Assembly (NCBI GenBank): GCA_022072025.1
Contig: JAJVIP010000005.1
Location: forward strand, 73,189 to 137,188
Reading direction: 5' to 3'
From: Elusimicrobiota bacterium
Lineage (GTDB): Bacteria > Elusimicrobiota > Elusimicrobia > F11
Length of the DNA: 64,000 bases
In this document: piece after piece, positions 245 through 52,412 of the stretch
Layout of the letters: every line of letters starts with the position of its first letter
Numbering within the stretch: position 1 is the first letter of the stretch
Notes under the pieces: generated by a model
Seen by the model: the letters and a program-made list of their open reading frames with translations, nothing else
The model's database searches: none
Told to the model about the DNA's origin: nothing
Program-made: the position numbers and the translations under genes

Positions 245-289
245 TTTTAACCCGACCTTAAGGATTCCTTAATCCCGTCCTGTTACGAT
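245..289 (+). promoter_or_regulatory. Tandem 11-bp TTAA box and -10 for the giant gene
   Basis: Three TTAA-bearing units repeat every 11 bases (TTAA at 247-250, 258-261 and 269-272), including the direct repeat CTTAAGGATTCCTTAA. Two TGTTACGA units with the same period follow (281-299). A -10-like TACGAT lies at 284-289, exactly 11 bases after the last TTAA. The ATG is only 12 bases further on, so the mRNA leader would be about five bases or none. The period and TTAA core resemble PhoB-type sites, especially the cyanobacterial SphR box; the assignment is inferred from four further copies in this window. Confidence 0.6.
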
Positions 290-301
290 TTTGTTACGAC
301 C

Positions 302-3300
302 ATGAAAGAAATCATTTTGTTAACCGACAGGTTAGGTGAGAATCGTCATCCCCTTAAGAGCGGGTGGGTTCGCGCTATCGCAGGACCGGTTTTTATGATG
401 TTTTTGATGATCTCTCCTTCCCTTTTCGCGACACCCTCTGTGAGCAATCTTTTTGCTGTTTCTGAATCTCAAATTGCCGTGAAGTGGAACTCACCTGAAA
501 GTGGACAGCTTACTTTCGAAATTCGCGTGTCATCGGCCGGGCCCATCGATTCGGTTAGTTTTGCCACCTGTCCCATCAATAAAGTGATTTCTTCAAACAC
601 GATTAGCGGGAGACAATTCTCTCTTTCACTGAACGGATTGAGCCTCAACAGCAATTATTATCTATCCGTGCGGGCCATGGGTTCGGACGGCCAATGGAGC
701 GCTTTGTCCACAGTTGGGCCCATCAAATCTGGATTTTTCCTGAAAAGGGAAAATGTCACCCTTCCCTTGGACATGGGAAATCCTGTCATCAAGCTCGCTG
801 ATTTCAACAAAGATGGCGATGCCGCCACCCCCGCTGGACATTATGTGGATGTAGCGGTGGCGGGACGTGTGGGCAATAACACCGAACTTCGCGTGTATCG
901 ATGGGACAACGCACTTGGGACCTATGTCAACGTTCTCAATGATTCTCTTTTGGGCCAGAATCCTCTCCTCGAATGGATTGATGTTGAATTGGACAATGAT
1001 TTGGATCTCATGGTGACCGATAATGTGTCGAAAAAAATCTGGCTGAACCGGGGTCCAGGAGTTTTAACGCCGGCCTTTGTTTCCGATGGTGAGCGTTATC
1101 CATCAAATCTTCCCTCTTTTTCGGAGGGGGCCATGGCCGCCGGAGATGCCAATAACGATGGCCGTGTGGATTTGGCCTTGGTGGGAAAACGAAATTCCGC
1201 GGACGTTCCAACGGTTCGCCTGGCGTTGAACAATGGCGCGGGATTTGATTACAGCGCGACTTCCATTGATCCCTCCAATACGCGACTCGACAATGCCTCC
1301 TTGGCCTGGGGAGACGCGAACCGAGATGGTCGCTTGGATTTGTTGGCTTCGGGAGGAACGTTGTCCGCTCCGGCCCTCATGTTGCTCCAAAATAAAGGGG
1401 ACCGGTTTGAACGAGTTTGGAATATCACGAATGGCGTTTCAGCGGGAGCGGTGGCTTGGGGAGATTATGACCAAGACGGGAAACTGGATTTCGCTGTTCT
1501 TGGAAAATTAAATAACAATTCAGTCACGCTTCGTCTCTATAAAAATATCACGCCTGATTCCGCCAATAGCCCTCCCAATTTTTCATTGGCCACAACGCTC
1601 ACCCCCGGTCTTTTTTCAGGAGATATGACTTCCGGCTCTCTGGCTTGGGGGGATGTCGACAACAATGGAACATTGGATTTGCTCGTGATGGGTCACGATA
1701 CACTTCAACCCCGCCTTTTGGTTTTCCTCAACACAGATAGAGGAGCCAATCCGAACAACTGGACGAAAGTGGAACCGCTTGGGGCCATGGGCGGCTTGTC
1801 CAAGGGATCTTTGGCTTTTGGAAATTTTGACGGCGACCAGGATCTTGATTTTATCACCGCTGGCTTTGATGGCGCGTCACTACGGTTTGTGGTCTTTGAA
1901 AATCTAACCCATTCCGCCGTTCATCCTCACAACAATGGCCTCCCGGGCCCTCCCAGCAATCTGGCCGCTCAAACCAGCGAGGGCCATTTGCTGCTCACCT
2001 GGACCTCTCCTTCCAATGATGAAACCGAACCCGCGGGTCTCATGTTTGAAGTGCAAGTCTCGTCTATCAATTTTGCCTTAAACCCCACCACCTTCAGTGT
2101 GACCGGCGTTCACGGCTCGCCCCTCATGGGAAACTATCTCGCCAGTTTTGTCTCTCCCACTCTTCGGGGGGTGAAATTGAGTTTGTTGGATGGCGCCACT
2201 TATTATTGGCGGGTTCGAGCCATTGACGCGGGGCTTCAAAAGGGGGGCTGGGCCACGCAAGGCCCCGTTTATTTTCCGCCGGTTCCTCCCAACAACATCA
2301 CCGATTTGGTGGCGGTGACGGGGGCGCAAGTCTCCCTCACCTGGACAGCCCCGAGCGCGCGCGGCGACGGAAAAGCTCCGGTGAACGGATATGAGCTTTA
2401 CCAATCAAACGCCCTTTCCCCCGATCCCAATAATTTGACGTCCACTGATTGGACGAAATTGAATATCCCAATTCCAGTTGAAAACCCAGGACGGACACAA
2501 TCGCTGACGGTGACGGGGTTGATTCCGTTTGCGAATTACTGGTTCGCGATACGGGCCACCAATGGAAAATCCTTCGCGGTTGTGCCTGGAAGCGCCACGG
2601 CCAGGGCGGGGCGGTTCCGATTGGCCAATGAGATCGTTCCACTGTCCTCGGCCACCCAGCGCGGCTCATTGGCGTGGGGAGACCTCAACAATGACAATTA
2701 TTTGGATTATGTGATTTCCGGCCAAAGCCAAGAAGTGAACACGAAAGTTTTCCTCTACAACGCCACCTCCAAACAATTTGTGCTGGGCCAGAAATTGCCG
2801 GAGATCATGTCCGAGTCCTCGCTCGCTTTGGCCGACTATGACAATGACGGTTTTCTTGATTTGGCCCTCAAAGGACGTTTGAGTCCGGCCAATCAAACTT
2901 CAAACCGCCTTCTGATTTATCGTAATCGCGGAACAAACCAATCCATCAACAATATCTTTGAAGAGGCGATTGATTCGCGGTTGATTGACGCCGCGTTGGA
3001 CACAGGTGCTTGGGGACAAGTTCAATGGGCTGATTACAACATGGATGGCAGCCAAGATGTCATTTTTACCGGGTCGAATGCCGGACTTGTGGCTTTGCGA
3101 AATGACCCTTTCACTCATGATTTCTCGACAGTAGTCCTTTCAACTGAGACCCAAAACACCACAAGTGGTTCGATGGCGTGGGCCGACGTGGATACCGACG
3201 GAGATGTGGATGTGGCGTTGGCCACGAGCAAACATACCCTTATCTTAACCAATGACGGTACCGGAAATTTTGTGAAGGCCTCGCAAATGGAGGCTCTGAT

Positions 3301-26092: not shown

Positions 26093-26141
26093 ACATGTGA
26101 GAAATTTTTTTCTTCAGTTAAACAGTGAGAACGTAACAATT

Positions 26142-26254
26142 CGTCGCCCCGGCAATCTTTTGGCCGGGGCCCAGGTGTTGCCTGATGTTCAGAATTTAAT
26201 ACAGGTTAAAAAGACAAAACCTGGGCCCCGGCCAGACGACTTGCCGGGGCGACG
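26142..26254. repeat. REP/BIME-like double palindrome
   Basis: The outer arms are CGTCGCCCCGGC (26142-26153) and GCCGGGGCGACG (26243-26254). Inner arms TGGCCGGGGCCCAGGT and ACCTGGGCCCCGGCCA face each other across an AT-rich middle. The whole 113 bp is therefore one imperfect inverted repeat of about 40-base arms. Other copies are at 52069, 55783 and 61137, with half or degenerate copies at 28220 and 50101. Confidence 0.9.
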
Positions 26255-26267
26255 GTTATTTCGGTTC

Positions 26268-26282
26268 CGGCGGAGCTGCACC
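26268..26282 (+). promoter_or_regulatory. Ribosome-binding site carried by the REP flank
   Basis: CGGCGGAGCTGC lies directly before the ATG at 26283, with GGAG seven bases from the start. The same twelve bases stand at the same distance from the REP end before the ATG at 61284. Near-identical GGTGGAG and GGCGGAG versions precede the starts at 61550 and 62711. This argues that the signal belongs to the repeat, and it favours 26283 as the start over the upstream in-frame ATG at 26097. Confidence 0.6.
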
Positions 26283-26606
26283 ATGACCGCATTTATATTC
26301 ATGCTATTGGTTTCATCTTGCACAACTTTATTCGCCGCCACACCCCACGCTTTTCCCGTTCCCTTCACCCCCAGCACCAATTCCTCTCACACCAAAATCA
26401 CCTTCACGAATTTACCCGCTTCGGGCACCATCAAGATCTACACCACCGACGGCCGATTGGTCGTGGAGTTGCCCATCCCCAACACCAGCCTGCTCGATTG
26501 GGCCGTGACCAATTCAAAAGGCGAAAAGCTCGCCACGGGGGTTTACATTTACCTCATCAAAGGCGACTCGACCCGATACGAAGGCAAACTCGTCATCATC
26601 CGTTAG
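26283..26606 (+). CDS. Small exported protein consisting of a sorting-type C-terminal domain
   Basis: The 107-residue product has a signal peptide (about residues 1-19, hydrophobic run ending in LFAA). A single domain of about 85 residues follows, running from FPVPFTPSTN to GKLVIIR. It is clearly homologous to the last 85 residues of the giant protein upstream (YPVPFVASKN to GKLVIVR, both with FTNLP, an IYT strand and a GVYIY or DVYLY strand). Such domains normally sit at the end of type IX secretion cargo or have a FlgD-Ig fold; here there is no cargo. It lies 190 bases after the giant gene with a REP element between, so it may derive from duplication of the giant's 3' end. Its function is unknown. 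An upstream in-frame ATG at 26097 would require translation through the REP and is less likely. Confidence 0.65.
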   Translation: MTAFIFMLLVSSCTTLFAATPHAFPVPFTPSTNSSHTKITFTNLPASGTIKIYTTDGRLVVELPIPNTSLLDWAVTNSKGEKLATGVYIYLIKGDSTRYEGKLVIIR

Positions 26607-28020: not shown

Positions 28021-28091
28021 ACAGCTCTATGGGAGAAACTGAAAAGTCCTGTATCACAGAAAGTGAGCCTCCTCTGAAAAGTCGCCTGAAA

Positions 28092-28150
28092 ATTTAACCT
28101 ATCCTTAAGGCAATCTTAAGACCCTGAACTGTAAGTTGATTGTAACCTAA
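28092..28150 (+). promoter_or_regulatory. Orphan tandem 11-bp TTAA promoter motif
   Basis: TTAA occurs at 28094, 28105 and 28116, exactly 11 bases apart, with CTTAAGGCAATCTTAA in the middle. TGTAAGTTGATTGTAAC follows, another 11-base repeat. The layout matches the boxes before the genes at 302 and 52413. No gene begins within the next 300 bases on this strand, and the -10-like sequence is poor (GTAAGT at 28131-28136). It may drive an untranslated RNA or be left over from a lost gene. Confidence 0.45.
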
Positions 28151-33491: not shown

Positions 33492-33523
33492 ATAGTTACT
33501 TTCCGAGATTAAGTTCGCCTTAA
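33492..33523 (-). promoter_or_regulatory. Tandem 11-bp TTAA box and -10 for giant 1
   Basis: On the minus strand CTTAAGGCGAACTTAA gives TTAA units 11 bases apart (33520-33523 and 33509-33512). Eleven bases later comes AACTAT (33497-33492) as a weak -10, and the ATG at 33485 follows after six bases. The architecture equals that of the genes at 302, 33617, 51918 and 52413, and it predicts an essentially leaderless transcript. Confidence 0.5.
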
Positions 33524-33576
33524 GATCTTGTAAAAATGTCGTAAAAAATAAAACTGTTACAAATAATTTACAGGCC

Positions 33577-33609
33577 CTTAAAGAGAACTTAATCTTATCC
33601 TGCTTAAAT
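33577..33609 (+). promoter_or_regulatory. Tandem 11-bp TTAA box and -10 for giant 2
   Basis: CTTAAAGAGAACTTAA (33577-33592) has TTAA at 33578 and 33589. TTAAAT at 33604-33609 sits 11 bases after the second TTAA, and the ATG at 33617 follows seven bases later. AGGGG at 33610-33614 is too close to the ATG for a standard Shine-Dalgarno. CTGTTACAAAT at 33554-33564 recurs upstream of the gene starting at 51918. Confidence 0.55.
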
Positions 33610-39600: not shown

Positions 39601-42600
39601 GTCCTGGGAAGATCATATGGCTTTATATTGGGCCCGCCTTCAGGAAGAAAATTCCATCGACCTTTTTTGGCATGATATCCATTTTACCCCCGCCGATTTT
39701 TACGAGTTTATGGATGACTTTGTTCAGTTAAAAGCTTCAGTGGTGGCCAATGAGTTGGACATCGCATTGGCACAAGTGGGCAGGGCCGCTCAACCAGGAA
39801 CCATCGTCATTTCAGATATGGGATCGCATGAGACCTTATTCAAACGATTGAAGGACTTGGGTTTTTCGCCACGGCCAACCGATTGGACCGATGAATCAGA
39901 GGAACATGGGGACAGCCTCCATAAATTGTGGGGCGTCATGAAAATTGTGTTTTTAGAGGCTCTGGGAGAACCCATTGGCCGCGAAGAGAAGGAAAAAAGC
40001 TATCGCGAAGGATTCATTGGAAACTTGTATATGAATTTTATCCCTGGGCTTGAGACGGGCCCGGATTTGGTTCGAGTCATCCTGCGAGATATTATTGATC
40101 AATGGACAGTGGCGGATTTTGAAGAAATTTTTAGATTAAGGCATGCTTGGATTGAGAATCAATTTGACGAAGATGAAGAAAATTATGAGTATTTGGAAAA
40201 AGTTGCAGAATATTTGTTGGAAAGAGCCCGCCTTTATTCCAATCCCTCCGATTACAATACAATTCTGAACCTCTATGAGTCAGATGAGGATGATCCAGAT
40301 GCGGGAGAGGCGGAATGGGGGGGCCCTCAATCCTTAACCGGCACATTCGGCGGGCCGTGGGTTTACGGCGTGCTCATGCCGGTTCTTGAAGAGGCCGGGC
40401 GTTGGGCGGCGTATCATTACGCGGGGTCAACCGTTTCTGGAATTCTCTGCGCGGTTCTTTTGTATTCAATCGTCCACGCTTTGCTTCATGTGTTCGTTGA
40501 TGTCTATGAAAATGGATTTAAAGGGCACATCCGCCGTCTCCCCGGGCGATTTGTTCTCTCCATGGGGTTTGGAATTTCGTTTCTTGTCGGCGCGGGTGCG
40601 GCCCCGCTTCTGAACTTGCTGATCGGCTCCCAAATTGATCCCGAACTGCTCGGCCTCATCTTCGCCTCCGCCGCTCATATGTTCAACAACCTCTGGCTGC
40701 GGCACCACATGCCCGAATCCATGCGCTGGCTGGCGCAGTTGATGTCGGTTATTCCTGCTGACGATCATGATCAATCGTGGCAAGATTTTTTTGCTGAGAA
40801 TTGGGGATTGCCACTGGATGGAGATATTCGCAATGCACAGGAATTTGCGGCAAATGTCAAACGAACAGGAGTGATAGATGGACAAAAATTCGTATCTCAA
40901 ATCAAAACCGATGATCCGGATGAATACCCATCAAAAGTGCAGGAACAGGCAATGCTTATTCGAGCCCTGTTTTATATTGAGCCGGATCTTGCGGCTTCAC
41001 TTTTCTTTAGTTTTCACACAAACCATGGGGCATGGGCTACGATGATGAATCCGGAATGGCCTCGGACAATACACGGCGGGATTGAAGCTGATCTAATCGC
41101 CGCCATCATAAAATTGGGATTGGAAAGCAATTATTCAAGTTCGAACAATAGGGTGCGCGGTAACATGTCTGTTCAAATGACTTACTCCATTCAAGGGATA
41201 GGCAGGTTGCCTGCCTATCTCCCCGCCCATTATTTCCGTTCCATAATCGAAAACTTGCCGGGTAGAACCAGCGCTGCATATTTATCGATCGTTCGAGATT
41301 ATCTGTCGAGCGAAAACACGCAAGCTCTTCTTCAAGAAACCATCAGTATCGACCCGCCGTCGATCGCCGAGTTGACCCGTGCGGAACGGAGCATATATCG
41401 AGCTATGCAGGGATCAAACACGGGAGAAATAAGCGATGGCGTTGTTCTTGGATTAGACGAACTCGGAGAAACATTCGCGGAACGTGCCGGAACGGTGCGT
41501 GCAATGGCAATGGGCCCGGAACAAGAAGTTGCAGGAGCTCTTTTGGCTGGCGTTAGTCAAAATTACGTGAGAGCTTGGTACGATTTATTCTTTGATGGAA
41601 ATGAACTGCGAATCGAGAAACAAGTTCTTGCGGGGATGATCATTTGTGCCCTGGCGGTTCTGGATGGCTCACTGGAGCCCCATTGGCAAGGGAATATAGT
41701 TCGTGTCTCAAAAGATATCACCGGTTTGATTGAGTTGCTCAAATCATTGCCGGATCACATTTGTTCACAAATTTTGGCGGAGGTAAAAGATTCTCGCCTC
41801 AATCGTAGACTCATGGAAGTCAGCGGTCCCATAGGGCACATACGATATGGCGAGCGCATGGGTTACTTGAGAGTTATTGAAAGCGATATTCCGACTTTGG
41901 AAGATTTACAGGCCATCGACCGGGGCTCCATCGTGGCGATGACGACTTTGCCGACATCCGACGTCAACGTGGGTCCTTTTGAAGGGATCATTACTTTCTT
42001 CGGACTTGAAGGCGGAAACCATGCGATGGAGCGCGCCAATGAATGGGATGCGCCATGCGCTTCACTGCCTGCAGATATGGTCATGAAATTGAAAGACAAA
42101 TTTGTCGTTTTTGAGGTTGTTGACGAAGAAAGAGTGATTCTCAGAGAAGCCACGGAAGCCGACAAAAGGCGTTATCAACCTCCTACCACGGTTCCGGAAA
42201 CAATTACGCTTCCTGTTGTGGATTTATCACGCAACCTTAACTACATAAGAACCAATGAGCGAAAGATGCGGGAGATTTCGATGGTGGGACCGAAAATTGC
42301 GCATCTCAATTGGTTGGCCGCGAAGGTTAATTTCGCATGTTCAATCATGGGCCGGTTTGTCGGATGGTTGTTCCGTATGCCGAAATTTCCTTTCGGTTTG
42401 TTCCAGTCTGATGTTCGCCTGGCCGTTGCCGGTGGAAGCGCGTTGCCATTCGACGCTTTTTGGAGAGTGCTTGCGCTAAACGGAAAGAAGAATGAATTCG
42501 AAGCGCTCACCCAAAAACTAAACCAGTCCAATCGAAACGAAGCCATTGATATTTTGGATGAGATCAAAAAGCTTGTGTCTGAATTGCGGTTTTATTTCCC

Positions 42601-44386
42601 AAACGACCCGTTTTGGAATGAAAAAAATTTATCGAAGCATTTCGGCGAGCTTTGGGAAAACGGGGTGTTTATCAGGGACGCCACCAACGCGCAAAATCTT
42701 TTGGGATACCCGTGGTTTGGCGCCGGGCTGTATTTAACCGAGCAGCATGTGGTGGGCAAAAATGAATTTTGGGACTCTGTTCGGCGGGTGTGGATGGATG
42801 TCTGGGATCAACGGCCTTTTGCGCAACGACGACGTCATAAGGTGGATGAAACGACAATCCACCCCGCCATCTGGCTTTCCCCGTCTCGTCCGGTGGATTA
42901 TTCATTTGTCATGCACACATCGAACACGCTCATGCAAGATCGCGATCATCTGTCCCTTTTTGTTGCTCAAGGTTATGGAACGGCCATTGTTTCGGACGCA
43001 GTTGAGTTCCGAGGGAAGAGCACCTCTGTGATCGTAAATAAGTCAAGCGGCAAAATTTTAGAGGAAGAAACCCAGCCCAGCACAAAAAAGATGAAGGCCG
43101 CGTTGCGGCAAATGGGAGGGCTCGAAGTTGTAACTGCGCCGGAATACAATGATTTTGTTTACCATGATCGCTTTGAAGAATTGGTTGATTGGTTGACAAA
43201 AGTAGGGATATGGGCGGAAGAAATAACAGAGTTACCCCAAAAAATAGAAGGCACAATCTATTTTGATGCGCCCAAAAAGCAATGGGTGATTACGTTAGAC
43301 CAGTGCGATCCGTTTGTGCGCGCTACCGAAGTTAAGGGAACCGATGCGACATATCTCGTCAAAAGCCTCCCTTATTACCTCGCGCTTGTTTGGAATGCGC
43401 TCGTTGACGGCGATTATCTGCGCGGGCGATGGTTCGGCCGTATTGAAAAACCGGAGAAGTTGATAATTCCGGGAGCGCTGGCGGAGGCGGCGGGCGCGTT
43501 TGTACTCATTATCTCGATGGACCAAGGATTTTCCTGGGTGGTGGCCGGTTACGCGCTGTTGCACGCGCTCGCATGGATGACCGCGCAGCTTCTCGCCCGC
43601 GGCCAGCCGGGCGCCTATAATATGTCTGTCGCATCCGTCGCCGGCTCGGCGCTCGCCCGCTTTGCCGTCCATTTCGTTGTGTTTCTTCTCTATATTCCCG
43701 CTTATTACTACATCCATCAGCCGAACTCATTTGTCTACTTTCTCAACATGTTCTTCGTCGGAGCGACGCTTCATCTGTTGTTCGATGCCTTGTTCCCTTC
43801 ACTCATAAAAAGAAACGCAGCGCCTGCCGCCGTCGGGTATCAAGCTCAGAAATTTTCAGTTGATGAGCTTTTGGGTTCGATCCAAACCCAAGACCGACCT
43901 CTCGGTTTGGAAACATATTCATTCGAAAACGTGTTGAAGGAAGAAAAACCGACGCGCGTGGTGGTTGTGCCGGCCGGCAAGTCTGCAACGGAAATTATCG
44001 AAGAAATCAAAAGAGTGGTGGAATACGTAAATGATGAGAATTTGGAAACAGTGGCGGACATTTGTGTGCTCTTGACCGGAAAACGAGAAAACTTTTGGGA
44101 CGCGGATGCGCGCCGCATTCTTGGATTCGTGAGTGAATCGTCTTTGCAGTCAGAGTTCGATGTCGAAAGTCACCTCTTGGATGGTGGCACAGAAGGCCGC
44201 ACGCTGGTGATGCTGCCAGACGGCACAGACATTACCGAACAAACGCTGGAACACTTGAAATCTCTGTCGGAAAAACGCGATGTTCGAATTTGCTTGATCG
44301 ATAGAATTGCTGCCGGAATGCAGGCGGTTGTGGGAAGGGTGAAGGACATTCTTCAAAGGCTTCGAATCATAAGGGGTCAAGTCTGA
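33617..44386 (+). CDS. ChaN/TraB-like giant protein 2: GDH, CPBP-like and dikinase-like fusion
   Basis: The product has 3,589 residues. A signal peptide (about 1-34) and ANFWKER precede the ChaN/TraB-like module (about 95-560; D103, H105, E110, E137, H511). Hydrophobic stretches lie at 628-642 and 653-676. Residues about 740-1190 form a complete Glu/Leu/Phe/Val dehydrogenase: GKGGTRF (K743), K767, catalytic K779 in TGAKSG, PDIGTD (D824), GREAATGKGV, GLGNVG (952-957) and ANAGGV. CPBP-like membrane modules lie at about 1245-1360, 2250-2370 and, degenerate, 3280-3400; the first two have MPVLEEA..R, VHA..H and H..NN. Residues about 2765-3200 resemble the C-terminal half of glucan water dikinase: a swivelling part with GGNHAMERAN (H2802), then VGPKIAHL, ALPFDAFWRVL, GYPWFGAGLY and RRVWMDVWDQR. 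Other parts are unrecognised; EQADLLADQF-type segments repeat near 1410 and 1530. The frame stays open despite three in-frame repeat insertions in the first module. The stop lies in the left end of the transposase element, so the C-terminus may be truncated. Confidence 0.75.
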   Translation: MNRRPLLQSSIKRISLLLSGLVVTSSFLPSLAEANFWKERQSALKAFGATPIVRPVLRTSVVLGNSVDSKMTTSSLLPTHGVRIKEVFPAGSQSLPRVILLQDVHANLEAQSNLAKTIEELTRQHSTPERPLFVGVEGVFGAFDFSRFRAFPDKRLTKDVAEHFLTENKIAAASYVGLTTDAPLPEFYGVDDPESYRLNVAAYRVSAPHIDALKKEWEKRGQQLAHEKRAVYNPQLAALDAAQADYRAGRSALAEYLNRLWKEPPPSPPTVRRGGEIHSFIQAARLESSIDFDVVEHERRRVLEKLARVISKQEADELMALSKSFGAGSLSHSDYYGALEGLLKRHSFFLRETPAFDAYIRYVLLADRINADQLLSELERLEEETLARLAVTPEEKKLAEESERHHLTGKLLDFALTPREWERYREFTSRHPGESRGPGLEHVSKGRLKDWIPAFAGMTTQPFEDFYRLADIRSRKMVDNLLSRVLGNSKSGSSTKYQVPSTAVLVAGGFHTDLITQELKTRGISYAVLTPQLTRVDTVRGSEYLSVFTREKTPLEKLLQGDRLFLANAETLAGHPAARVVNTQILASLSLRDPKAALQIVFGGILASFKMNGGVSSEKRVDFSLRSAAQWIIGMGVLASFGATGTHPWVESYPFFLPYGLLFLAGAAAYIFFQWARIEFGGTHTVSTAQKYYEDAVHHSDYTEEEKRQLLSEEPQVTRYFFLVGWKIYLGWRAKYVSLLTGKGGTRFAVDLRPQTIKTLAREMLYKVSVMNLPFTGAKSGARVNFQKLSDEKKAQFARRLGDEAFSSATSSLYDPLGYSGAPDIGTDATVMNRITDQFIFRMASVQNIHDLRTNKLPEEFAKLLKEKPDPTKNPTETAYLDTYVSLWNRGEVDGSLLGLVTGKDVVHGGIHGREAATGKGVCFSAQAVARKYGDLWGWKEGLKGRRVAILGLGNVGYFTAKSFEEEGAQVIAVGEYNSFVYDETGLDISRLKEHFKEKKSFTGYSHKGAQSASGESSGTEALFVSNAEIVIPAAKEDQITMGNVERFSKERMPHLRMIVEAANGPMTPAAAAWLAEHRPDVVIVPDIFANAGGVTVSAFEWINNRQSKLREELAKGKSYGTAESFIREVLDWLESTYTPMVKRREPSEKIIVAVHDFLKSYMDQRADKMFEMADLLKTTRDFSHEPLREAAYKMAVDRRVLEIRRAQGLKAGPEKKEDPKEKNLGLAMSWWAGPKNWPSVRRVWMPVLEEALRLAAFGLFGIIGVIVYTFVHAAGHYHVDVHAARGDHLTPWQFWLGRFWIRLFISFFAFTTPYLLIDQPTAAQTILTLQAFGRALFLHILNNTLIYDFFTKKLKWKWWMMSAADPHPKLDFIEKNAIEALRRVPVLREEFGIQFYSLIHSVREDPHHQKSDFRRALEPYIDTGYLTPDQADALVDQFDFPDPIHPERVERHDSPIANSGSPTLLPFENFSIPLALKRAGIWTMGYLEGFKVLMDQLHGKPGLGQVAFRAVLATHVEKNFITNEQADLLADQFVFDSSAEADKPLSRWDGVYFVSNLFDQMPSVEGLIKYDMKRGGAEGLITFAPRIMTVKKFMDDMKNFREGNLAWPSQITRRDKQKIIDLANLFDPDQEQKYWLVELLHPRNRLALLAYATYVNLSDSSGPTKGQVIVRGSLSSGEVMHGVVCDLYSTLGLKAFSKKKIDDAKFFMQQAYYHLAQTVRIHAEHQVVPALHMLKQERPKRAVLVKDDLFFSFSAEALRNQHFRVISFELPQSLPPYMDVLSKNYQDPFIQDLNIIAMQLFFNLILDGYKKRFPQQVNIDLRRSKITPETAWGVLTDLVKNENFDPINDIQTFLKETDTFFSSESPAPQPIMEILIEGTSRVHGSPDPVVLIQGVIYGRKFLRDFWPGKLREFSERIARLNKNGVFCSVRSLRIDDSPEGLEAANKLLENDDLFYNYLNIPEIRLDYTRNSETLAEYNASALRDTGIGFDFHSMSWEDHMALYWARLQEENSIDLFWHDIHFTPADFYEFMDDFVQLKASVVANELDIALAQVGRAAQPGTIVISDMGSHETLFKRLKDLGFSPRPTDWTDESEEHGDSLHKLWGVMKIVFLEALGEPIGREEKEKSYREGFIGNLYMNFIPGLETGPDLVRVILRDIIDQWTVADFEEIFRLRHAWIENQFDEDEENYEYLEKVAEYLLERARLYSNPSDYNTILNLYESDEDDPDAGEAEWGGPQSLTGTFGGPWVYGVLMPVLEEAGRWAAYHYAGSTVSGILCAVLLYSIVHALLHVFVDVYENGFKGHIRRLPGRFVLSMGFGISFLVGAGAAPLLNLLIGSQIDPELLGLIFASAAHMFNNLWLRHHMPESMRWLAQLMSVIPADDHDQSWQDFFAENWGLPLDGDIRNAQEFAANVKRTGVIDGQKFVSQIKTDDPDEYPSKVQEQAMLIRALFYIEPDLAASLFFSFHTNHGAWATMMNPEWPRTIHGGIEADLIAAIIKLGLESNYSSSNNRVRGNMSVQMTYSIQGIGRLPAYLPAHYFRSIIENLPGRTSAAYLSIVRDYLSSENTQALLQETISIDPPSIAELTRAERSIYRAMQGSNTGEISDGVVLGLDELGETFAERAGTVRAMAMGPEQEVAGALLAGVSQNYVRAWYDLFFDGNELRIEKQVLAGMIICALAVLDGSLEPHWQGNIVRVSKDITGLIELLKSLPDHICSQILAEVKDSRLNRRLMEVSGPIGHIRYGERMGYLRVIESDIPTLEDLQAIDRGSIVAMTTLPTSDVNVGPFEGIITFFGLEGGNHAMERANEWDAPCASLPADMVMKLKDKFVVFEVVDEERVILREATEADKRRYQPPTTVPETITLPVVDLSRNLNYIRTNERKMREISMVGPKIAHLNWLAAKVNFACSIMGRFVGWLFRMPKFPFGLFQSDVRLAVAGGSALPFDAFWRVLALNGKKNEFEALTQKLNQSNRNEAIDILDEIKKLVSELRFYFPNDPFWNEKNLSKHFGELWENGVFIRDATNAQNLLGYPWFGAGLYLTEQHVVGKNEFWDSVRRVWMDVWDQRPFAQRRRHKVDETTIHPAIWLSPSRPVDYSFVMHTSNTLMQDRDHLSLFVAQGYGTAIVSDAVEFRGKSTSVIVNKSSGKILEEETQPSTKKMKAALRQMGGLEVVTAPEYNDFVYHDRFEELVDWLTKVGIWAEEITELPQKIEGTIYFDAPKKQWVITLDQCDPFVRATEVKGTDATYLVKSLPYYLALVWNALVDGDYLRGRWFGRIEKPEKLIIPGALAEAAGAFVLIISMDQGFSWVVAGYALLHALAWMTAQLLARGQPGAYNMSVASVAGSALARFAVHFVVFLLYIPAYYYIHQPNSFVYFLNMFFVGATLHLLFDALFPSLIKRNAAPAAVGYQAQKFSVDELLGSIQTQDRPLGLETYSFENVLKEEKPTRVVVVPAGKSATEIIEEIKRVVEYVNDENLETVADICVLLTGKRENFWDADARRILGFVSESSLQSEFDVESHLLDGGTEGRTLVMLPDGTDITEQTLEHLKSLSEKRDVRICLIDRIAAGMQAVVGRVKDILQRLRIIRGQV
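34417..34442. repeat. In-frame G/C-tract hairpin inside giant 2
   Basis: CCCCCCCAC and GTGGGGGGG form a perfect 9-bp stem with an 8-base loop. It encodes part of KEPPPSPPTVRRGGE (residues about 262-276). Neither paralogue has a matching insertion between the family motifs AEYL or ADYL and RLES, so this looks like an inserted palindrome tolerated in a loop. Confidence 0.65.
34904..34992. repeat. In-frame palindromic repeat inside giant 2
   Basis: The 89-bp element begins CGTCACCCCGGCGAAAGCCG and ends in TTCCGGCTTTTGCCGGAATG plus AC. Both ends are hairpins (CCCCGGC/GCCGGGG and TTCCGGC/GCCGGAA). It encodes about residues 430-459, RHPGESRGPGL to WIPAFAGMT, peptides typical of translated dispersed palindromes in many genomes. 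The paralogue at 28446 has only a short loop here, and the frame is kept. Confidence 0.85.
35095..35122 (+). repeat. Four tandem 7-bp units inside giant 2
   Basis: AAGTACT, AAGTACC, AAGTACC and AAGTACT follow without gaps, 28 bases in all. They encode part of SSTKYQVPST just before the conserved AVLVAGGFH motif. Because 28 is not a multiple of three, the surrounding sequence must compensate; the frame is open. Confidence 0.85.
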
Positions 44387-44551: not shown

Positions 44552-45529
44552 ATGGCTCGACCGCTTCGAATCCAATATCCGGGTGCCCTTTATCACGTGA
44601 TGAATCGCGGAACAAGCCGGCTTCCCACATTCTTTTCCAACGATCACAAACAAATGTTTTTGGGGGTGTTATCCGACGCCGTCAACACCTGGGATTTGCG
44701 GGTGCATGCTTTTTGTTTGATGACCAATCACTATCACTTGTTGCTCGAAACGCCTTTGGGAAATTTGAGCCGTGCAATGCGGCATATTGATGGGGTTTAT
44801 ACACAAAAGATCAATAAATTGACTGGAAGAGATGGATCCCTTTTTAGAGGGAGGTATAAATCCTTGTTGGTTCAGAAAGAAACCTATTTCTTGGCGTTGG
44901 TTCGATACATTCATATGAATGGAGTAAAGGCGAACATATATTCCCATGCCGGAGAGGACCTTTACTGCAGTCATATGTTTTACATGAACCCGGCTCTCCG
45001 TCCGGCTTGGTTAAACGTTGGAGATATTTTGAATAGGTTTGGGGGAGACAACGAGCTTGCGCGGCAACGACTCGATGCATTTGTGCACGCTGATGTGGGA
45101 GATAAATTGAATCGTCTCCTGGAGGGAAAGGTTTGGCCGGCGGTTATAGGCGGGAAAAAATTTATCGAAACGATCCGGGATACATATTCACCTGAGCAGA
45201 AACCACATCCAGAAAAGCCCCAGGAGAAAGAATTACGCCGAATAGTGGCGCCGGAGGAAATTCTAGAAGAGATTGAGGCAATCTATAAACTGCCTGAAGG
45301 CCGGCTATGGACGATGCGAGGGAAACACCATAACGAGCCCCGATTGGCAGCCATCCATCTCTTGAGGAAAGTTTGTTTGTTGAGTTATAGGCAGATTGGG
45401 GAGAGAATGGGGGGAGTCGGGGCGGGAACAATCGCTTCATTCTTAAAGAAAAAACCACTTCATTCCAGAAATTATGAGGCGCTTCAGAAAAGGTTTGGGA
45501 TGAACCAAAGACTCAAAACTCAGACTTGA
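44552..45529 (+). CDS. REP-associated tyrosine transposase (Y1_Tnp, RAYT type)
   Basis: The 325-residue protein has a single-strand nuclease domain in its first half. It starts with the family's typical MARPLRIQYPGALYHVMNRG. The HUH motif is H60-Y61-H62 in MTNHYHLLLE, and the likely nucleophile is Y83 in GVYTQKINK, followed by GSLFRGRYKS. The C-terminal third (about 225-320) resembles the DnaA-type helix-turn-helix tail of RAYTs (LSYRQIGERMGG). Such enzymes cut at structured palindromes and are thought to mobilise REP elements, which are plentiful in this window; that link is an inference. AAGGAATG lies about 15 bases upstream of the ATG. The gene appears intact. Confidence 0.9.
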   Translation: MARPLRIQYPGALYHVMNRGTSRLPTFFSNDHKQMFLGVLSDAVNTWDLRVHAFCLMTNHYHLLLETPLGNLSRAMRHIDGVYTQKINKLTGRDGSLFRGRYKSLLVQKETYFLALVRYIHMNGVKANIYSHAGEDLYCSHMFYMNPALRPAWLNVGDILNRFGGDNELARQRLDAFVHADVGDKLNRLLEGKVWPAVIGGKKFIETIRDTYSPEQKPHPEKPQEKELRRIVAPEEILEEIEAIYKLPEGRLWTMRGKHHNEPRLAAIHLLRKVCLLSYRQIGERMGGVGAGTIASFLKKKPLHSRNYEALQKRFGMNQRLKTQT

Positions 45530-45546: not shown

Positions 45547-48500
45547 CTACGCGGCAATGAGGGCACGGGTGAAGGCGTTGAAGCGCTCGATAACTAGGCG
45601 TGAAACCTGGGCGCCCACCCAACCGGAAATCATTTCATCCAACGCGATGAATTGAATGTTTCGTTCCTTGAGATATTTAAAGTCAACTGCAAATCGATCG
45701 GTCTGGAGACCCACGTATAAGAGCCCCTGGTCCTTAGGGAGGGCATCTAATGCCAAGTTCAAATTAAACGCCGTTGCATTTTGAATATAAAAACTGTGGT
45801 TGGCGTAAATGAATTCAATTTTTTTATTTTGATCCCGATCTTCAGGTGAAAGCGCGAAAGCTTTCCCGCATTCAGATGCGAGACTTCGTTTGATGGGCAG
45901 GTAAAGCGTAGAACCGGCGGGGAGTGAATTCAGCGCCTTCTGGATTTTGTTTTTTTCTTGATTTATGTGTGCCTGTGTCTCAATGCGAGTTTCCAAAAGA
46001 AATTGCATGGCCTTGTTTTCTGAAAGGGTCGCAAGCGGTGAAAAGGCATGTCTGTCGTTTTCTAAAGCGGCTCGGCGCCATTGCATGAAAGTGGGATTTA
46101 TGGCAAGTGCCTTCGAGAGATTCGCTTTAATTTGATCGATCAGGTCAACTTCTCGATTGAGAGGGAGGGTTGTAATGAAATCTGCGGAGATTTCGTTTGT
46201 TTGAAGCGGCCAAAAAGCGTTTTCCTGATCGGAGTCAGCTCCGTGATGGTTTCCAACAATCCTGAAAAGATGATCAATGTAATGTTGAGCCCATCCTTTG
46301 ATCGTGTCCAATCGCTTATGCAGGGAATTAAAAAGATTCATCGCAATTTGATCTTCTTTGATGGAAGGATGAGGTTTCCCGTCGACACTTAAGGTCGAAA
46401 GGGCTTGTTCCACTTGGCCGTTGTTTCGGTACAAACGCGCCAAGGTGGTGCGCAGGATGGGTTCTTGACGATCCAAGACCCGAGCCAGGTCATCGGTCAA
46501 TGGATATCGGCGGGAGTTTTCGATTATTTCGAGGGCCTTTGACAACACAACTATACCATCCTGATAATTTTTCTGTTCAAGATAAGTTACTGCCAATTGA
46601 TTGGCCGATGTAAACCATCTATCTTTTTCGGAAGATGTAGTTGAATCTTTAAATAGTTGAAGAATTGCCGTGTTATCCTTAATGGCATTTTCCGTTTGGC
46701 CCATTCCTTCTTTTATAGGAGCTTGATGTTGAAAGGCTTTTGTTCTTGTTGTACGTACAATCGGTTTTGGGGTGACTTTTCGCCCCTTCTCTTCTTGTTT
46801 GCGTTTCCAGGAAAAAATAAACAGCGGATTTTGTTCTTTGAGCCAGGTGGAAACATAGACGACTCCTCCCCACGCGAAAGAGGCCAGAACCAGGAAAAAC
46901 CCCGAAATGAGCCACAAGGGATCAATGTGGCCCAGCATCAACAAATCGCGGGAGGAGTGGGCATCGTCATTGGAATGAGCATGAGACCCACCGACCAGCG
47001 CGTATAAAAAAAGGGATAACACGCCGTAGAGAATCAAGCCGGGAAATAAATTATCTGAATCAAGAAAGGCCAACATCACCAACTCCACAGTGGGAAGAAG
47101 GGTGATCAGGCCATTTGAAATACCTGTGATCAGCATGTGGATGCGATTAAATGGCAGTTTGACTTTAAAAATAGAATCGCTTGGGACCCAGTACGGCAGA
47201 GCCCTTTCTTGTTTTTCTCCACCATAAACAACGGTGGGGTGATCAAGGGTGGCGAAATAAAAGGCGCCTGCAAGCCACAAAATCAATTTGACGACCAAAA
47301 AGAGTAAAGCCAACCTTTCTATTTGGACGGCGGTTAGAGCAGAAAGGGAAAGGCCCCAAGCCCATATAATTCCCATCATCACCAGCGCGGTGATGCCTTC
47401 TTGAAAGAGGGCGCGGCGGATGCCGTCTTCATAGAATCCTCCCAGCACCGCCACAGCGCGGGGAGACCAGGTGGTTCGGTCAAAAAACCGGAACTCCTGG
47501 TGAATACCATTTTGTTCCCGTTGAACCGCTTCGGTGTACCACCGCGCAAAGTTCACATCCACTCCAGGGAAAATATTACGCGATGAGAGTTGAAGGGGGT
47601 GAGAGGAGTCGTCTGGTGCATCTCTTTTCTGTTGGTCACTCAATATGATTTGAATATCCATAAAGACGAATAGGAGTTCCAAAAACGAAAACGACCAATT
47701 CTTGTCTGAGAGATCAGAGTTATAAACAAGGACAGATATGGATTGGTTTTGTCTTCCGAGCAATATATATGTGCCTACAATTAGGCCTGCTGCTTTCTCA
47801 ATCGTGGTTGGGTCTTTAATGATTTTCTTTTCTCTACATACACGAACGATATTTACCTGTGTGTTTAAGAAGAACGATATAAAGCCTGGAAATAAACGAA
47901 GGAAAAGAATTAAAGCAGCGACAGCCTGAATTTCGTCTTGTGATTTTTTTATGGATAATAGCTCTTGTATATTGAGTGTGAGTCGAGATAAACGTTCGAG
48001 CGATTTCGATATCAGATCAGGGGCATTTGGTAACGCGTCTGAAAAATCATGGGCCATGGTTTGGTAATACCTGTGTATTCTTTCTTTTTGCTCAGGATTT
48101 TTCTCATAGTAAGCATTTAGAGTGGGAATTAAATCCCTGTAACGTTGGATTATGTTCGATACCTTAGAAATATCATGACCTGAACCTTTGATAAGTACCA
48201 ATTTAACGAAAGCGAAGTATTGTGCCAATTCAACATCCTCTCTTTGATTGGGATTGGGATTAAAGTTTTCTCTCAACCAAAAAATTGAGCTCTCGACCAA
48301 ATCATCAATGGGTTGAGAGGGATTATGAGCCTTATAAGATGCGTTGATTTCCAACCTCAGCCGTCTCATTTTATGGGATTCCATGATTCCGTAGGGGCGA
48401 GGGATCTGCCTAAATCGAACCCCATGCTCCTGCTCCAAATAACTCACCAGAGCCGCACGGTCACTCCACCTAATATTTTTTTCGGGATTTAATTTGTCCC

Positions 48501-51500
48501 TGAGGCTGGCTTGCTCACGCTCATCCAGCGTAATCGCACCCTCCGCATCTAACGCTTGAAATTTGGTCAGGGCCCGGTCACAAATGGCGGGCCCAAAAAC
48601 GGGGTCTTTAATAAAGTCTTCAAGGAAAGAAATTCTGTCATGGTTGGATTGCCGCTGCTTACGAATGATTGAGTCGATGAAACTTTGTGGAGCGGATTCC
48701 ACTGGGGGACTTTTTGGTTTCTTTTTTGGTTCAGTGTGATTTGGTGGTGGTACAACAACTGAATTCGAGGCGTTAACCGATTTTTCTGCGGCCTTTCTTC
48801 TTTTCTCCCTCTCCTCTCTATTTGCCTTTCGGGTTGCCTCTATAGTGCTTCGTGCTTCGTTAAACATCATTGAAAATTCTGAATTCGTATTCTCATGTCC
48901 CGCAAACGTCTCGAGGGCTTTCTCCACTGTAGTATCGTCATCAATGGGAACTTGGGTGGCCCAGGCGGTCATACCTGAAATAATATGGGCGCCGACCTCG
49001 GGAAGATGGGGATGCGCGGTGCGGCCCAGGTTTCCAAGGGCCTGGAAATTCGGATTTTCAGTTTCGAAACTTTCTTTGCAAGCTTGTTTTACGCGGGATA
49101 TCAGTTCCGATTTAAATGATAACCATTCACGCGCGAGACGAGCTTGGATGGAATAATCCGTCGGATCGAATTGGGGGGCGGAAGGCATCGTTCTATTTCC
49201 AATTTCATCATTGAGGAGTTGAAGGATTTCCCTCAAATCTGTGAGTGTTGTGTTCGGAAGTAGTCCTTCTTTAAACCCTTTAATTTCACTGATCAAAGTT
49301 TCAATATATTGATCTTCTTCTCCAGCGGGGATATTGACGCTCATGAGAATGGCCATAAGGCCCAGAACCGAAGCTGAGGCGGGAGAGAAATAAAAAAGAA
49401 ACCCAGAGAGCAACAACCCCGAAACGATGAAAAAACGCCGGTGTTGCCCCAGCCGTTTTTTGAGGCCAATCCAAACGAGGGCCAGCCCGATATCAGCGGT
49501 CACTTCATCGATGGATTTTTCTGCGTTGATGGACCTGAAGCCGGGGTGGGAACGGTAGTAGTCGACGACAGGCAAGGTGACTTCCTCATAAACTTTGAGA
49601 CGATTACGAAAAACCTCCGAGTTGTCATCGGCCCTATTCTCTTTTTTTCTTCGTTCATCCACTCGTGCGAAGAGTTTTTCGAGATCCACATCAAAATAAA
49701 TCACCGCATCAATCGAAATGTTGTTTTCTGATAGGAATGACGTTAATACTCTAGCTTGGTCAACATTTCTAGGATAACCATCTAAAAAGAAGCTTTGATT
49801 GTTCAGTCGTGAAATGAAATGGAAAACGATTTCATTCACCAATCCATCATTCACCATCTCTCCCTTAAGCATGATGTCATTAATTTCTTTTCCAAGCTCA
49901 TTTCCGGACCCACGCATGTTTCGAAGCATATCGCCGGTTGAAAGTTGTTTGGACCCGAACGTGGATTCAATTATTTTGGCTTGGGTTCCCTTCCCGGCGG
50001 CGGGAGGGCCGATGAGGATGAGATTCATGGGAGGTAAAAGGGAGGCCATGGTTTTGATCCATAAAAGTTTTGCTTTTAGGACGGTTCCATTCCATATAGA
50101 ACCTAGGCCCCGGCCAAGAGGCGTGCCGGGGCGACGATTCAACTGAATTATTTGGGCTAAATTATTTTTGATGGAGCTTAAACTTGGAATCTGGGGGGCC
50201 CTGATGGGGTTAAAAAACCAGGCGAGGCTGCGGAAGGTGGGGCGGGTGGCCAGCAATTGTTGTGCCAATTCCAGCCGTTTCGCGGGGGAAAAGGGGTGCG
50301 GGGAGAGAAAAAGGGGCTGGCCTTCAAATAATTTGTCGAGCGGGGTTTTTTCTTGGGAGAAAACCGAAAGGTATCGAGTGGCTTCTTCCTTATTTATATG
50401 GGTGATTTTCGGGACATAGGTCAAGACCCGATGGCCGCCCTTGGTCAGTTCGCGGGCCAGTCCGGCCGAGTGGAACCCGCCTGTCACAAGCAGGATGGGT
50501 TTTTGAGCGGTTGAAGTTTTTTGGGCGGCTTCCGCGGCGTTGATGGCGCTCAAAAGGTGGCGGGCCATGGCTCCGTCGCGTTGTTCGGCTTCTTGATAGA
50601 AGTCTTCAAAGGCGGACAATGTCCCCTCCTGACTTTCCTCGGCGAGTCGCGTTTGGCGACCTCCCCCTTGTGAACCATGGGAAGGAAAAGTTTTGTATTC
50701 ATCCCACTCTTCTTTGGTGAGTGAAAAATTCACTAATTTTTCTCTAAGAGAAAGTTTTTTCAATTGGGCCAGCAAGGTTCGTTCCTCTGTGGTGATGATA
50801 GCCGTCCCCATCACGCGTTCCTCTAAATCATTCACCTCTTTGAACAGAGCCTCTCCATCAACGGACTCAGAGAGATTCAGGTAACGAATATACCGGCTTA
50901 AGTGAGGGGTGGAAGTGAGTATCACCCCTTGCCGACGAGAAAGAGACTCGATGAAGGCGTAGAACTCTGAGTCCAATAAATGTCCCTGTTTGTAAGCCTT
51001 TATTTTCTCCGCCAACTCGGAGGTTTCTCTCCCGGATATTTTGGGTAACAGTTGGCCCATGAGAAGATTGCGGTCTTTCTCTACGGAATTCAGATCAAGG
51101 GATTGTTCAATTTTGAGGGCCTCGGCGAAGCGTTTGACATTTTGACCCACGCCCGTTTGGTGGGGAGTTTGAGCGAGAAGCCATTCGATATATCCTGCCA
51201 AAGACAAGTCCCCCGCTTGATACATTTCCATCTTCCGCACCCTCATTTTTAAGGCCGGGTTCAGGCGGTTTTCTTCTTCGAGCCGGAGGTTTTCTCTTTC
51301 CTTTTTTATCTGAACTTTCATGGAACCCATGAGTTTTGACGCTCGCCGGTAAGCGTCGATATTGGCTTGATAATGGGTTTCGTCATCAATGCCGAGGATC
51401 GGCGCTTGAAAGGGCGAACGCAGCGCGGCATGGATGGGGCCTGAAATTTTATTTTCTTTTAAAAAGAGGTCGGCTTTTTCCTTCAGAGTTGCCGGAAAGG

Positions 51501-51918
51501 GGAATTGTTTAAACCGGCTGATCTCAATGGGGCCCGATGCGCCTTCCAAAGCCATCAGTTCCACTTGATTTTGCGCGAGCAGAGTTTCCACCAATTTCCC
51601 GATGTTTTTTTGCGCTTCGAGGTTCATGTGAATGTCTTGGATATGAAGGATGGTCCGCGCATGGGGTGGAAGGGTTTTCGGTTCCTGGATTTTTCGGAGG
51701 TTTCCATAGGGGAATGAAAATTGCGAAGTTGTGGTAGGAGTGCGCGCCAGAATTTCGGTGGAGCGTGGGGGCTCATTGCCTTTGATCGATTTTTGTCTTT
51801 CATTCCAGAAATTGATTTCGGGGGAATAGGCGAGCAGGCAATTGTTTCCGAAGAGGATCAGGGAGAGCGCAAACGTGAAGGAGCGAAAAAACGTGTCGAG
51901 GGTATTGTTGAGTTTCAT
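45547..51918 (-). CDS. ChaN/TraB-like giant protein 3: adenylate kinase and TPR fusion
   Basis: The 2,123-residue protein is counted from the ATG at 51918. The upstream in-frame ATG at 51936 lies between the predicted box and -10, so it is unlikely to be the start. A signal peptide (about 1-31) precedes INFWNER and the ChaN/TraB-like module (about 85-540; D95, H97, E102, E125, GIDD, TGGFHSAGL). A REP-encoded stretch, RRPGTPLGRGLGS (595-607), links it to a complete short-lid adenylate kinase (about 631-815) with GPPAAGKGT, LSTGDMLR, FLDGYPRN and RADDNSEVFRNRL. Hydrophobic segments follow near 829-862. There is then a long helical and charged region, several membrane segments (about 1510-1700), TPR-like repeats (about 1743-1840) and an unrecognised C-terminus. 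No membrane segment lies between signal peptide and kinase, so the kinase is predicted outside the cytoplasm, which is odd for an ATP enzyme. The gene converges on the transposase element. Confidence 0.75.
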   Translation of the reverse strand: MKLNNTLDTFFRSFTFALSLILFGNNCLLAYSPEINFWNERQKSIKGNEPPRSTEILARTPTTTSQFSFPYGNLRKIQEPKTLPPHARTILHIQDIHMNLEAQKNIGKLVETLLAQNQVELMALEGASGPIEISRFKQFPFPATLKEKADLFLKENKISGPIHAALRSPFQAPILGIDDETHYQANIDAYRRASKLMGSMKVQIKKERENLRLEEENRLNPALKMRVRKMEMYQAGDLSLAGYIEWLLAQTPHQTGVGQNVKRFAEALKIEQSLDLNSVEKDRNLLMGQLLPKISGRETSELAEKIKAYKQGHLLDSEFYAFIESLSRRQGVILTSTPHLSRYIRYLNLSESVDGEALFKEVNDLEERVMGTAIITTEERTLLAQLKKLSLREKLVNFSLTKEEWDEYKTFPSHGSQGGGRQTRLAEESQEGTLSAFEDFYQEAEQRDGAMARHLLSAINAAEAAQKTSTAQKPILLVTGGFHSAGLARELTKGGHRVLTYVPKITHINKEEATRYLSVFSQEKTPLDKLFEGQPLFLSPHPFSPAKRLELAQQLLATRPTFRSLAWFFNPIRAPQIPSLSSIKNNLAQIIQLNRRPGTPLGRGLGSIWNGTVLKAKLLWIKTMASLLPPMNLILIGPPAAGKGTQAKIIESTFGSKQLSTGDMLRNMRGSGNELGKEINDIMLKGEMVNDGLVNEIVFHFISRLNNQSFFLDGYPRNVDQARVLTSFLSENNISIDAVIYFDVDLEKLFARVDERRKKENRADDNSEVFRNRLKVYEEVTLPVVDYYRSHPGFRSINAEKSIDEVTADIGLALVWIGLKKRLGQHRRFFIVSGLLLSGFLFYFSPASASVLGLMAILMSVNIPAGEEDQYIETLISEIKGFKEGLLPNTTLTDLREILQLLNDEIGNRTMPSAPQFDPTDYSIQARLAREWLSFKSELISRVKQACKESFETENPNFQALGNLGRTAHPHLPEVGAHIISGMTAWATQVPIDDDTTVEKALETFAGHENTNSEFSMMFNEARSTIEATRKANREEREKRRKAAEKSVNASNSVVVPPPNHTEPKKKPKSPPVESAPQSFIDSIIRKQRQSNHDRISFLEDFIKDPVFGPAICDRALTKFQALDAEGAITLDEREQASLRDKLNPEKNIRWSDRAALVSYLEQEHGVRFRQIPRPYGIMESHKMRRLRLEINASYKAHNPSQPIDDLVESSIFWLRENFNPNPNQREDVELAQYFAFVKLVLIKGSGHDISKVSNIIQRYRDLIPTLNAYYEKNPEQKERIHRYYQTMAHDFSDALPNAPDLISKSLERLSRLTLNIQELLSIKKSQDEIQAVAALILFLRLFPGFISFFLNTQVNIVRVCREKKIIKDPTTIEKAAGLIVGTYILLGRQNQSISVLVYNSDLSDKNWSFSFLELLFVFMDIQIILSDQQKRDAPDDSSHPLQLSSRNIFPGVDVNFARWYTEAVQREQNGIHQEFRFFDRTTWSPRAVAVLGGFYEDGIRRALFQEGITALVMMGIIWAWGLSLSALTAVQIERLALLFLVVKLILWLAGAFYFATLDHPTVVYGGEKQERALPYWVPSDSIFKVKLPFNRIHMLITGISNGLITLLPTVELVMLAFLDSDNLFPGLILYGVLSLFLYALVGGSHAHSNDDAHSSRDLLMLGHIDPLWLISGFFLVLASFAWGGVVYVSTWLKEQNPLFIFSWKRKQEEKGRKVTPKPIVRTTRTKAFQHQAPIKEGMGQTENAIKDNTAILQLFKDSTTSSEKDRWFTSANQLAVTYLEQKNYQDGIVVLSKALEIIENSRRYPLTDDLARVLDRQEPILRTTLARLYRNNGQVEQALSTLSVDGKPHPSIKEDQIAMNLFNSLHKRLDTIKGWAQHYIDHLFRIVGNHHGADSDQENAFWPLQTNEISADFITTLPLNREVDLIDQIKANLSKALAINPTFMQWRRAALENDRHAFSPLATLSENKAMQFLLETRIETQAHINQEKNKIQKALNSLPAGSTLYLPIKRSLASECGKAFALSPEDRDQNKKIEFIYANHSFYIQNATAFNLNLALDALPKDQGLLYVGLQTDRFAVDFKYLKERNIQFIALDEMISGWVGAQVSRLVIERFNAFTRALIAA
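50101..50162 (-). repeat. Half REP element inside the coding region of giant 3
   Basis: On the plus strand GGCCCCGGCCAAGAG leads to GCCGGGGCGACG (50125-50136), the right half of the REP family. AACTGAATTATTTGGGCTAA follows, matching the flank at 28155-28178 in reverse orientation. It is translated on the minus strand as part of QIIQLNRRPGTPLGRGLGS between the first module and the adenylate kinase. The frame is intact. Confidence 0.8.
50622..50675 (-). repeat. Probable short repeat insertion inside giant 3
   Basis: It encodes SQGGGRQTRLAEESQEG at about residues 416-432. This is the same interdomain loop where giant 2 carries its 89-bp palindrome and giant 1 has only a few residues. A small stem, GTCGC/GCGAC (50646-50660), is visible. 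The repeat nature is inferred from position and composition. Confidence 0.4.
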
Positions 51919-51925
51919 GACGGAG

Positions 51926-51957
51926 ATAATAGCCATCGATCATTAAAATCTTCTTAA
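51926..51957 (-). promoter_or_regulatory. Tandem 11-bp TTAA box and -10 for giant 3
   Basis: On the minus strand CTTAAGAAGATTTTAA gives TTAA at 51957-51954 and 51946-51943, 11 bases apart. Eleven bases later TATTAT (51931-51926) is a good -10. The ATG at 51918 follows after seven bases. This places the transcription start at or next to the ATG and excludes the longer start at 51936. Confidence 0.6.
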
Positions 51958-52068
51958 GAACTTGTAAATCTTTCGCAACAAATTTGTAACAGGCGGTTTA
52001 CAAGCCCCAGGCCAGTGTCTCATTAGCCCCAATGCGGTTTAGTTAAAAAAAAATTATTAGACACCAAT

Positions 52069-52164
52069 CGTCGCCCCGGCACGTTTTTGGCCGGGGCCCA
52101 GGTTTTCAACCTGTTGTTTAACAACATGTTTAAGACCTGGGCTCCCGCTTTCGCGGGAGCGACG
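52069..52164. repeat. REP/BIME-like double palindrome
   Basis: The outer arm CGTCGCCCCGGC (52069-52080) and inner TTTGGCCGGGGCCCAGGTT are followed by a spacer. The right half is diverged (AGACCTGGGCTCCCGC and GCGGGAGCGACG). A further short palindrome-like string, GATCCCTCACTGCGTTCGGG, lies at about 52190. The stretch from 51958 to 52260 has no gene. Confidence 0.85.
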
Positions 52165-52268
52165 GACCGTACCTTTTTATTCGAATCAAGAGATCCCTCA
52201 CTGCGTTCGGGATAACACTCCGTCGGTAACACAGAACGTTAAAGAGATACCTTTCATAAAAATTTCAA

Positions 52269-52284: not shown

Positions 52285-52357
52285 AGCGGCATATTCGAAT
52301 GGATTTAAAAAACACCTCTAAAAAACAAGGGGTTTTCAAGCTTGGTATTTAATCCTA

Positions 52358-52402
52358 AATTAACCCGGCCTTAAGGCGCTCTTAATCTCACCTTGTTACA
52401 GT
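52358..52402 (+). promoter_or_regulatory. Tandem 11-bp TTAA box and -10 for the PorV-TPR gene
   Basis: TTAA occurs at 52360, 52371 and 52382, exactly 11 bases apart, with CTTAAGGCGCTCTTAA in the middle. TTGTTAC and TGGTTAC follow in the same period. The -10-like TACAGT (52397-52402) sits 11 bases after the last TTAA, and the ATG at 52413 follows ten bases later. The arrangement is almost base-for-base that of the giant gene at 302. Confidence 0.6.
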
Positions 52403-52412
52403 TTGGTTACAT

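Follow-up and report, generated by a model that had tools for sequence, protein, structure and literature searches.

Five genes in a 64,000-nt stretch of DNA from an uncultured Elusimicrobiota bacterium (GCA_022072025.1, contig JAJVIP010000005.1, positions 73,189-137,188 of the forward strand; genome size 3.64 Mb), here called the window, start shortly downstream of tandem TTAA boxes. This arrangement raises the question of which regulator reads the boxes and which functions it controls. A first-pass annotation had regarded them as PhoB/SphR-type direct repeats of a phosphate regulon that comprises giant proteins and a PorV-like protein and is transcribed into leaderless or nearly leaderless mRNAs.

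Repeat arrays and start codons in the window

The letters bear out the layout at all five promoters. Each contains two to four TTAA cores spaced by exactly 11 bp (247, 258 and 269; 33509 and 33520, minus strand; 33578 and 33589; 51943 and 51954, minus strand; 52349, 52360, 52371 and 52382). The last core is followed after 11 bases by a -10-like hexamer (TACGAT, AACTAT, TTAAAT, TATTAT and TACAGT), and the ATG follows after a further 12, 6, 7, 7 and 10 nt, respectively. For the minus-strand gene whose open frame opens at 51936, the ATG that matches the promoter is the annotated start at 51918. In total, TTAA-N7-TTAA occurs 10 times in the window where 0.81 occurrences are expected, a number reached by none of 100 shuffles. 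Most arrays reach further upstream than previously described, by one or two in-register boxes (TTTACAA or TTAAC), and a sixth array, which had been overlooked, has no long ORF downstream of it in the window and may be a remnant or belong to an unannotated small gene or RNA (Table 1). The window also encodes a Y1 (IS200-like), RAYT-like transposase with a DnaA_C-like helix-turn-helix (44552-45529), and GC-rich hairpin repeats resembling REP elements are found near it (52080-52170).

Table 1. Genes, operators and promoter elements of the window, in window positions, and the candidate regulator upstream of it
Feature	Position or sequence	Strand	Remarks
Response regulator, OmpR/PhoB family, candidate	G000:C5:69807-70496		PF00072 and PF00486; 2.7 kb upstream of the window
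Operator/promoter of the 8596-aa giant	236-289	+	TTAACC 247-252, CTTAAG 257-262, CTTAAT 268-273; E=2.4e-7; 38.6 bits
Extended -10 of this promoter	TGTTACGAT	+	TACGAT 284-289
8596-aa secreted giant	302-26092	+	FG-GAP, fn3 and Ig-like domains; weak T9SS-like sorting tail at the C-terminus
T9SS type-A-like sorting-domain protein	26097-26606	+	just 3' of the 8596-aa giant; TIGR04183, 26.9 bits (cut-off 23)
Sixth operator-like array	28085-28136	+	repeats 28094-28119; TTAA at 28094, 28105 and 28116; E=3.5e-6
1679-aa giant-family member	28446-33485	-	FWxER N-terminus; Tiki/ChaN-like DIHxNxEAQ domain
Operator/promoter of this gene	33492-33548	-	TTTAC, TTTAC, CTTAAG, CTTAAT, -10 AACTAT; E=2.3e-10; 52 bits
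Operator/promoter of the gene at 33617	33553-33609	+	GTTAC, TTTAC, CTTAAA, CTTAAT, -10 TTAAAT; E=5.8e-10; 50.9 bits
3589-aa giant-family member	33617-44386	+	Glu/Leu/Phe/Val dehydrogenase and PPDK_N domains
Giant-family member with adenylate kinase domain	45547-51918	-	ATG at 51918
Operator/promoter of this gene	51926-51982	-	TTTAC, CTTAAG, TTTAAT, -10 TATTAT; E=2.3e-4; 32.9 bits
Operator/promoter of the PorV/PorQ-family gene	52346-52402	+	TTTAAT, TTAACC, CTTAAG, CTTAAT; E=1.7e-8; 44.2 bits
Extended -10 of this promoter	TGTTACAGT	+	TACAGT 52397-52402
PorV/PorQ-family outer-membrane protein with TPRs	52413-54395	+	NF033709, 163 bits (cut-off 90)

If transcription is taken to start 6-7 nt after the -10, the predicted leaders of the window genes measure 0 to about 6 nt, and all five genes fit a leaderless geometry. 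Genome-wide, an in-frame ATG follows the -10 by 4-13 nt at 15 of the 28 promoters with an identifiable gene, compared with three that have an ATG or GTG in one of the two other frames; promoters other than the 15 have ordinary predicted leaders. Among relatives, the same geometry is found at 9 of 16 promoters in genome G032 and 7 of 24 in G069. Since only about half of the targets fit, predicted leaderless starts are common in the regulon and not part of its definition, so that a leaderless or nearly leaderless layout is supported for the window and was too general an expectation beyond it. The layout recalls the leaderless TANNNT promoters of Deinococcus-Thermus and Mycobacterium, where the -10 is reported to lie directly before the ORF (PMC12340547, PMC3160421); it differs in that one activator-type operator is involved here and that only about half of its targets are arranged in this way.

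The full operator and its targets

The motif was built stepwise from an alignment of 20 sites of the source genome and then of 27 sites from this genome and its relatives. In its full form, the operator has as many as four 11-bp repeats in phase, TTTACAA-N4-TTTACAA-N3-CTTAAGG-N4-CTTAAKN, followed after about 11 bp by a TANNNT -10. It occurs in two flavours, as giant-family promoters open with TTTACAA boxes, while those of the 8596-aa giant and the PorV-like gene have TTAAC/TTAAT boxes and an extended -10. The half-sites are arranged head-to-tail at 11-bp spacing and the last repeat lies about 10-11 bp 5' of the -10, in the place of a -35, which supports the proposed PhoB/SphR-type architecture and gives the motif the form of a direct-repeat operator of the OmpR/PhoB family.

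Specificity is high for the full motif, as a model built from sequence only gives 29 sites at E<0.01 in the 3.64-Mb genome. Within 691 kb examined, about 40 matches exceed 9 bits, one of which overlaps a predicted ORF and nearly all of which lie 5' of one, although the count inside genes is biased because these stretches were picked around sites and regulators; the genome-wide model search is therefore the fairer, unbiased count. Bare TTAA-N7-TTAA was rejected as a genome-wide probe, being too loose (117 places).

Genome-wide scanning, which had been proposed with the first description, recovered further giants when the full motif was used. Most targets belong to one family of giant proteins, defined by the protein-family model A1, which has 28 genes in the source genome and is present in 43 of 150 Elusimicrobiota genomes. 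The 28 genes, whose open frames range from about 900 to about 7500 aa, share a DIHxNxEAQ (Tiki/ChaN-like) domain and mostly have a signal-peptide-like start and an FWxER motif; some combine glutamate-dehydrogenase-type, PPDK_N or adenylate-kinase domains with a signal-peptide-like start in one protein. The operator precedes 22 of the 28 at E<0.05 and three more in a weaker variant, and three have no site (C26:78544, C30:69100 and C30:40079). Sites also precede the 8596-aa giant, two further giants (C19:46612 and C10:270472) and three PorV/PorQ-family genes (the PorV-TPR gene of the window, C5:9146 and C9:131885). The common full motif upstream thus supports the earlier grouping of the giants and the PorV-like gene in one regulon. 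The T9SS-like sorting domains of the giant at 302 and the protein at 26097 suggest a possible PorV-linked export route.

At least eight further Elusimicrobiota genomes have the motif 5' of genes of this family. It precedes 14 of 14 family genes in Ca. Obscuribacterium magneticum, 11 of 11 in RA.bin92, 9 of 10 in fen_1177 and 5 of 5 in PL23a_bin.39 (shuffled maximum 6.1 bits), 14 of these loci having contributed to the training of the model. The scan of 150 genomes gave three motif genomes, which is a lower bound because the filters were strict and the right family was represented by few genomes. The motif is absent 5' of distant relatives from Omnitrophota, Chlamydiae and Auribacterota.

A candidate regulator

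The source genome encodes eight regulators with a Trans_reg_C domain. One of them (the C5 regulator; Table 1) belongs to a cluster directly 5' of the giant at 302 that also encodes its histidine kinase, another sensor and an NtrC-like regulator. We consider it probable that the boxes serve as operator for a single regulon of this Elusimicrobiota lineage, and that the C5 regulator, and not PhoB, is their binder and activator. Its orthologues show 55-87% identity and more than 280 bits, with next-best homologues at 51% or lower. Among 18 distinct genomes, including the source genome, the regulator or an orthologue is present in 8 of the 9 that have at least eight sites and in 1 of the 9 that have at most one, a co-occurrence inflated by the relatedness of these genomes. 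The order kinase-regulator-NtrC-giant-PorV is syntenic in G069, with sites before its giant and its PorV, and in G032 a site (31.6 bits) lies 5' of the kinase-regulator operon itself; in the source genome, no motif site was found 5' of the regulator's own operon. Two genomes deviate: Ca. O. magneticum has 35 sites and yielded no clear orthologue (best 43%), and its MAG may be incomplete, while G125 has an orthologue (63%) and only degenerate boxes. In G032, a site also precedes a gene encoding a protein with a receiver domain (G032:C2:18959, L307), which may be a second regulator controlled in the same way.

The C5 regulator and its eight orthologues share the recognition helix GT(I/V)DVHI(R/Q)HLR. 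PhoB Arg201 makes contact with guanine (PMC3973317); by our alignment, numbered after E. coli PhoB, C5-type regulators have His at this position, whereas Arg is kept in the pst-linked PhoB of the source genome. His fits a box that lacks the G of TGTCA; this is an argument and not proof, since in SphR the PhoB contacts are conserved and the box read is nonetheless CTTAAC (PMC1906773). The C5 regulator scores 222 bits against the PhoB equivalog TIGR02154, below the cut-off of 296, which does not discriminate here because the pst-linked PhoB, at 227 bits, also falls below it; against the PmrA/BasR equivalog it reaches 161.4 bits, with a cut-off of 330.

Phosphorylated, the C5 regulator would bind the four in-phase half-sites head-to-tail, two of the TTTACAA type and two of the CTTAAG type. 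The last box would replace the -35, and RNA polymerase would be recruited, in a PhoB-like manner, to the TANNNT -10 about 11 bp downstream. The targets would be the giant secreted-protein family, other giants and PorV/PorQ-like outer-membrane proteins, and in about half of them transcription would start at, or a few bases from, the start codon. The motif, its specificity and conservation, its co-occurrence with the regulator and the synteny were established computationally; binding by this regulator, activation as opposed to repression, the transcription start and the signal are the parts that we infer.

Alternative readings and biological meaning

Control by PhoB, as first assumed, would explain the geometry, since Pho boxes of cyanobacteria and E. 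coli are likewise 11-bp direct repeats about 10 bp 5' of a TAN3T -10 (PMC1906773, PMC4415409), and the box resembles the SphR consensus CTTAACCT. SphR arrays have three or more repeats with CTTAAC/CTTTAC half-sites (PMC1906773). However, the PhoB of the source genome is encoded in a pstS-phoB-phoR-pst locus on contig C30 where no motif site was found (C30:60500-80000); the promoters of this locus carry TGTCAC-N5-TGTCAC, close to the E. coli Pho box, and its PhoB keeps the Arg201 that contacts G in Pho boxes. The expectation of phosphate-uptake genes among the matches was thus not borne out at pst, and a phosphate regulon is very improbable; unlike SphR and PhoB systems, this one has giant and PorV-like secreted targets and a candidate with His for Arg201. 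The TGTCAC pairs precede two pstS genes on C30 (L144, 8960-9000 and 13360-13385), and at the first of them TTTAC occupies the adjoining 11-bp register. Between kdpE and kdpA lies a TTAA-N7-TTAA pair (C2:241091), possibly a KdpE site.

The operator may be composite, with boxes 1-2 read by an older, class-wide second regulator and only boxes 3-4 by the C5-type one. In lineages without a C5-type regulator, a TTTACAA/GTTACAA pair (as in GTTACAA-N4-GTTACAA) and the -10 are kept before giants, their distance unchanged, but CTTAA is replaced by GTTTAGG or GTTGAAG; the high matrix scores of ND5_Bin_57 are due to boxes 1-2 and the -10, without CTTAA. As the pair persists where the regulator is absent, another protein may bind boxes 1-2, and TTTAC half-sites are also in line with the TGTCAC boxes at pst. 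Either the inner boxes changed along with the regulator, or a second factor reads boxes 1-2. Against the latter, all boxes share a single 11-bp register, the promoters of the 8596-aa giant and PorV are TTAAC-type throughout, and in cyanobacteria SphR alone serves arrays in which CTTTAC and CTTAAC boxes occur together (PMC1906773), so that we regard a composite operator as rather unlikely. The fixed spacing of the boxes to the -10 would also be expected of an alternative sigma-factor promoter without an operator, but a sigma factor does not read as much as four 11-bp-phased repeats (about 44 bp), and the TANNNT -10 is of the ordinary type, which makes this very improbable. Paralogues make up most targets, and their promoters might merely have been copied with the duplicating genes, without present regulation. 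Between promoters of the source genome, however, the boxes are 75% alike and the -10 52%, while the flanks (25-27%) are at chance and the spacer between boxes and -10 is near it, indicating that the sites are kept by selection and not copied along; as unrelated genes (the 8596-aa giant, the PorV-like gene and others) also have the operator, mere copying is hardly credible.

One regulon under the C5 regulator thus remains our preferred reading, and its operator is of a known kind, as the Pho, ArcA and PmrA architectures are alike. Boxes 3-4 match the PmrA (BasR) box CTTAAG-N5-XTTAAT (PMC3973317), which has two half-sites instead of four, and a single ArcA site of E. coli can comprise two to five direct repeats spaced by 11 bp (PMC3798270), a likeness in the number and spacing of repeats, with other targets. 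What is new is the regulon, on which no paper was found in the literature searched, which includes few subscription journals; searches on PmrA boxes with TTAA and on Ca. Obscuribacterium also returned nothing. In a bolder and more tentative interpretation, a dedicated two-component system might run the lineage's whole stock of giant surface proteins, together with PorV/sorting-domain export, via a four-repeat operator and leaderless mRNAs, with inner boxes that changed in sister lineages as the regulator was lost.

For giant genes of uncultured bacteria, lists usually give no hint of the conditions of use. In the present case, a single operator and a single candidate regulator link more than 20 giants with PorV-like export proteins, making their role testable via the signal of the kinase. 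Furthermore, these promoters form a large natural series in which operator and recognition helix change together.
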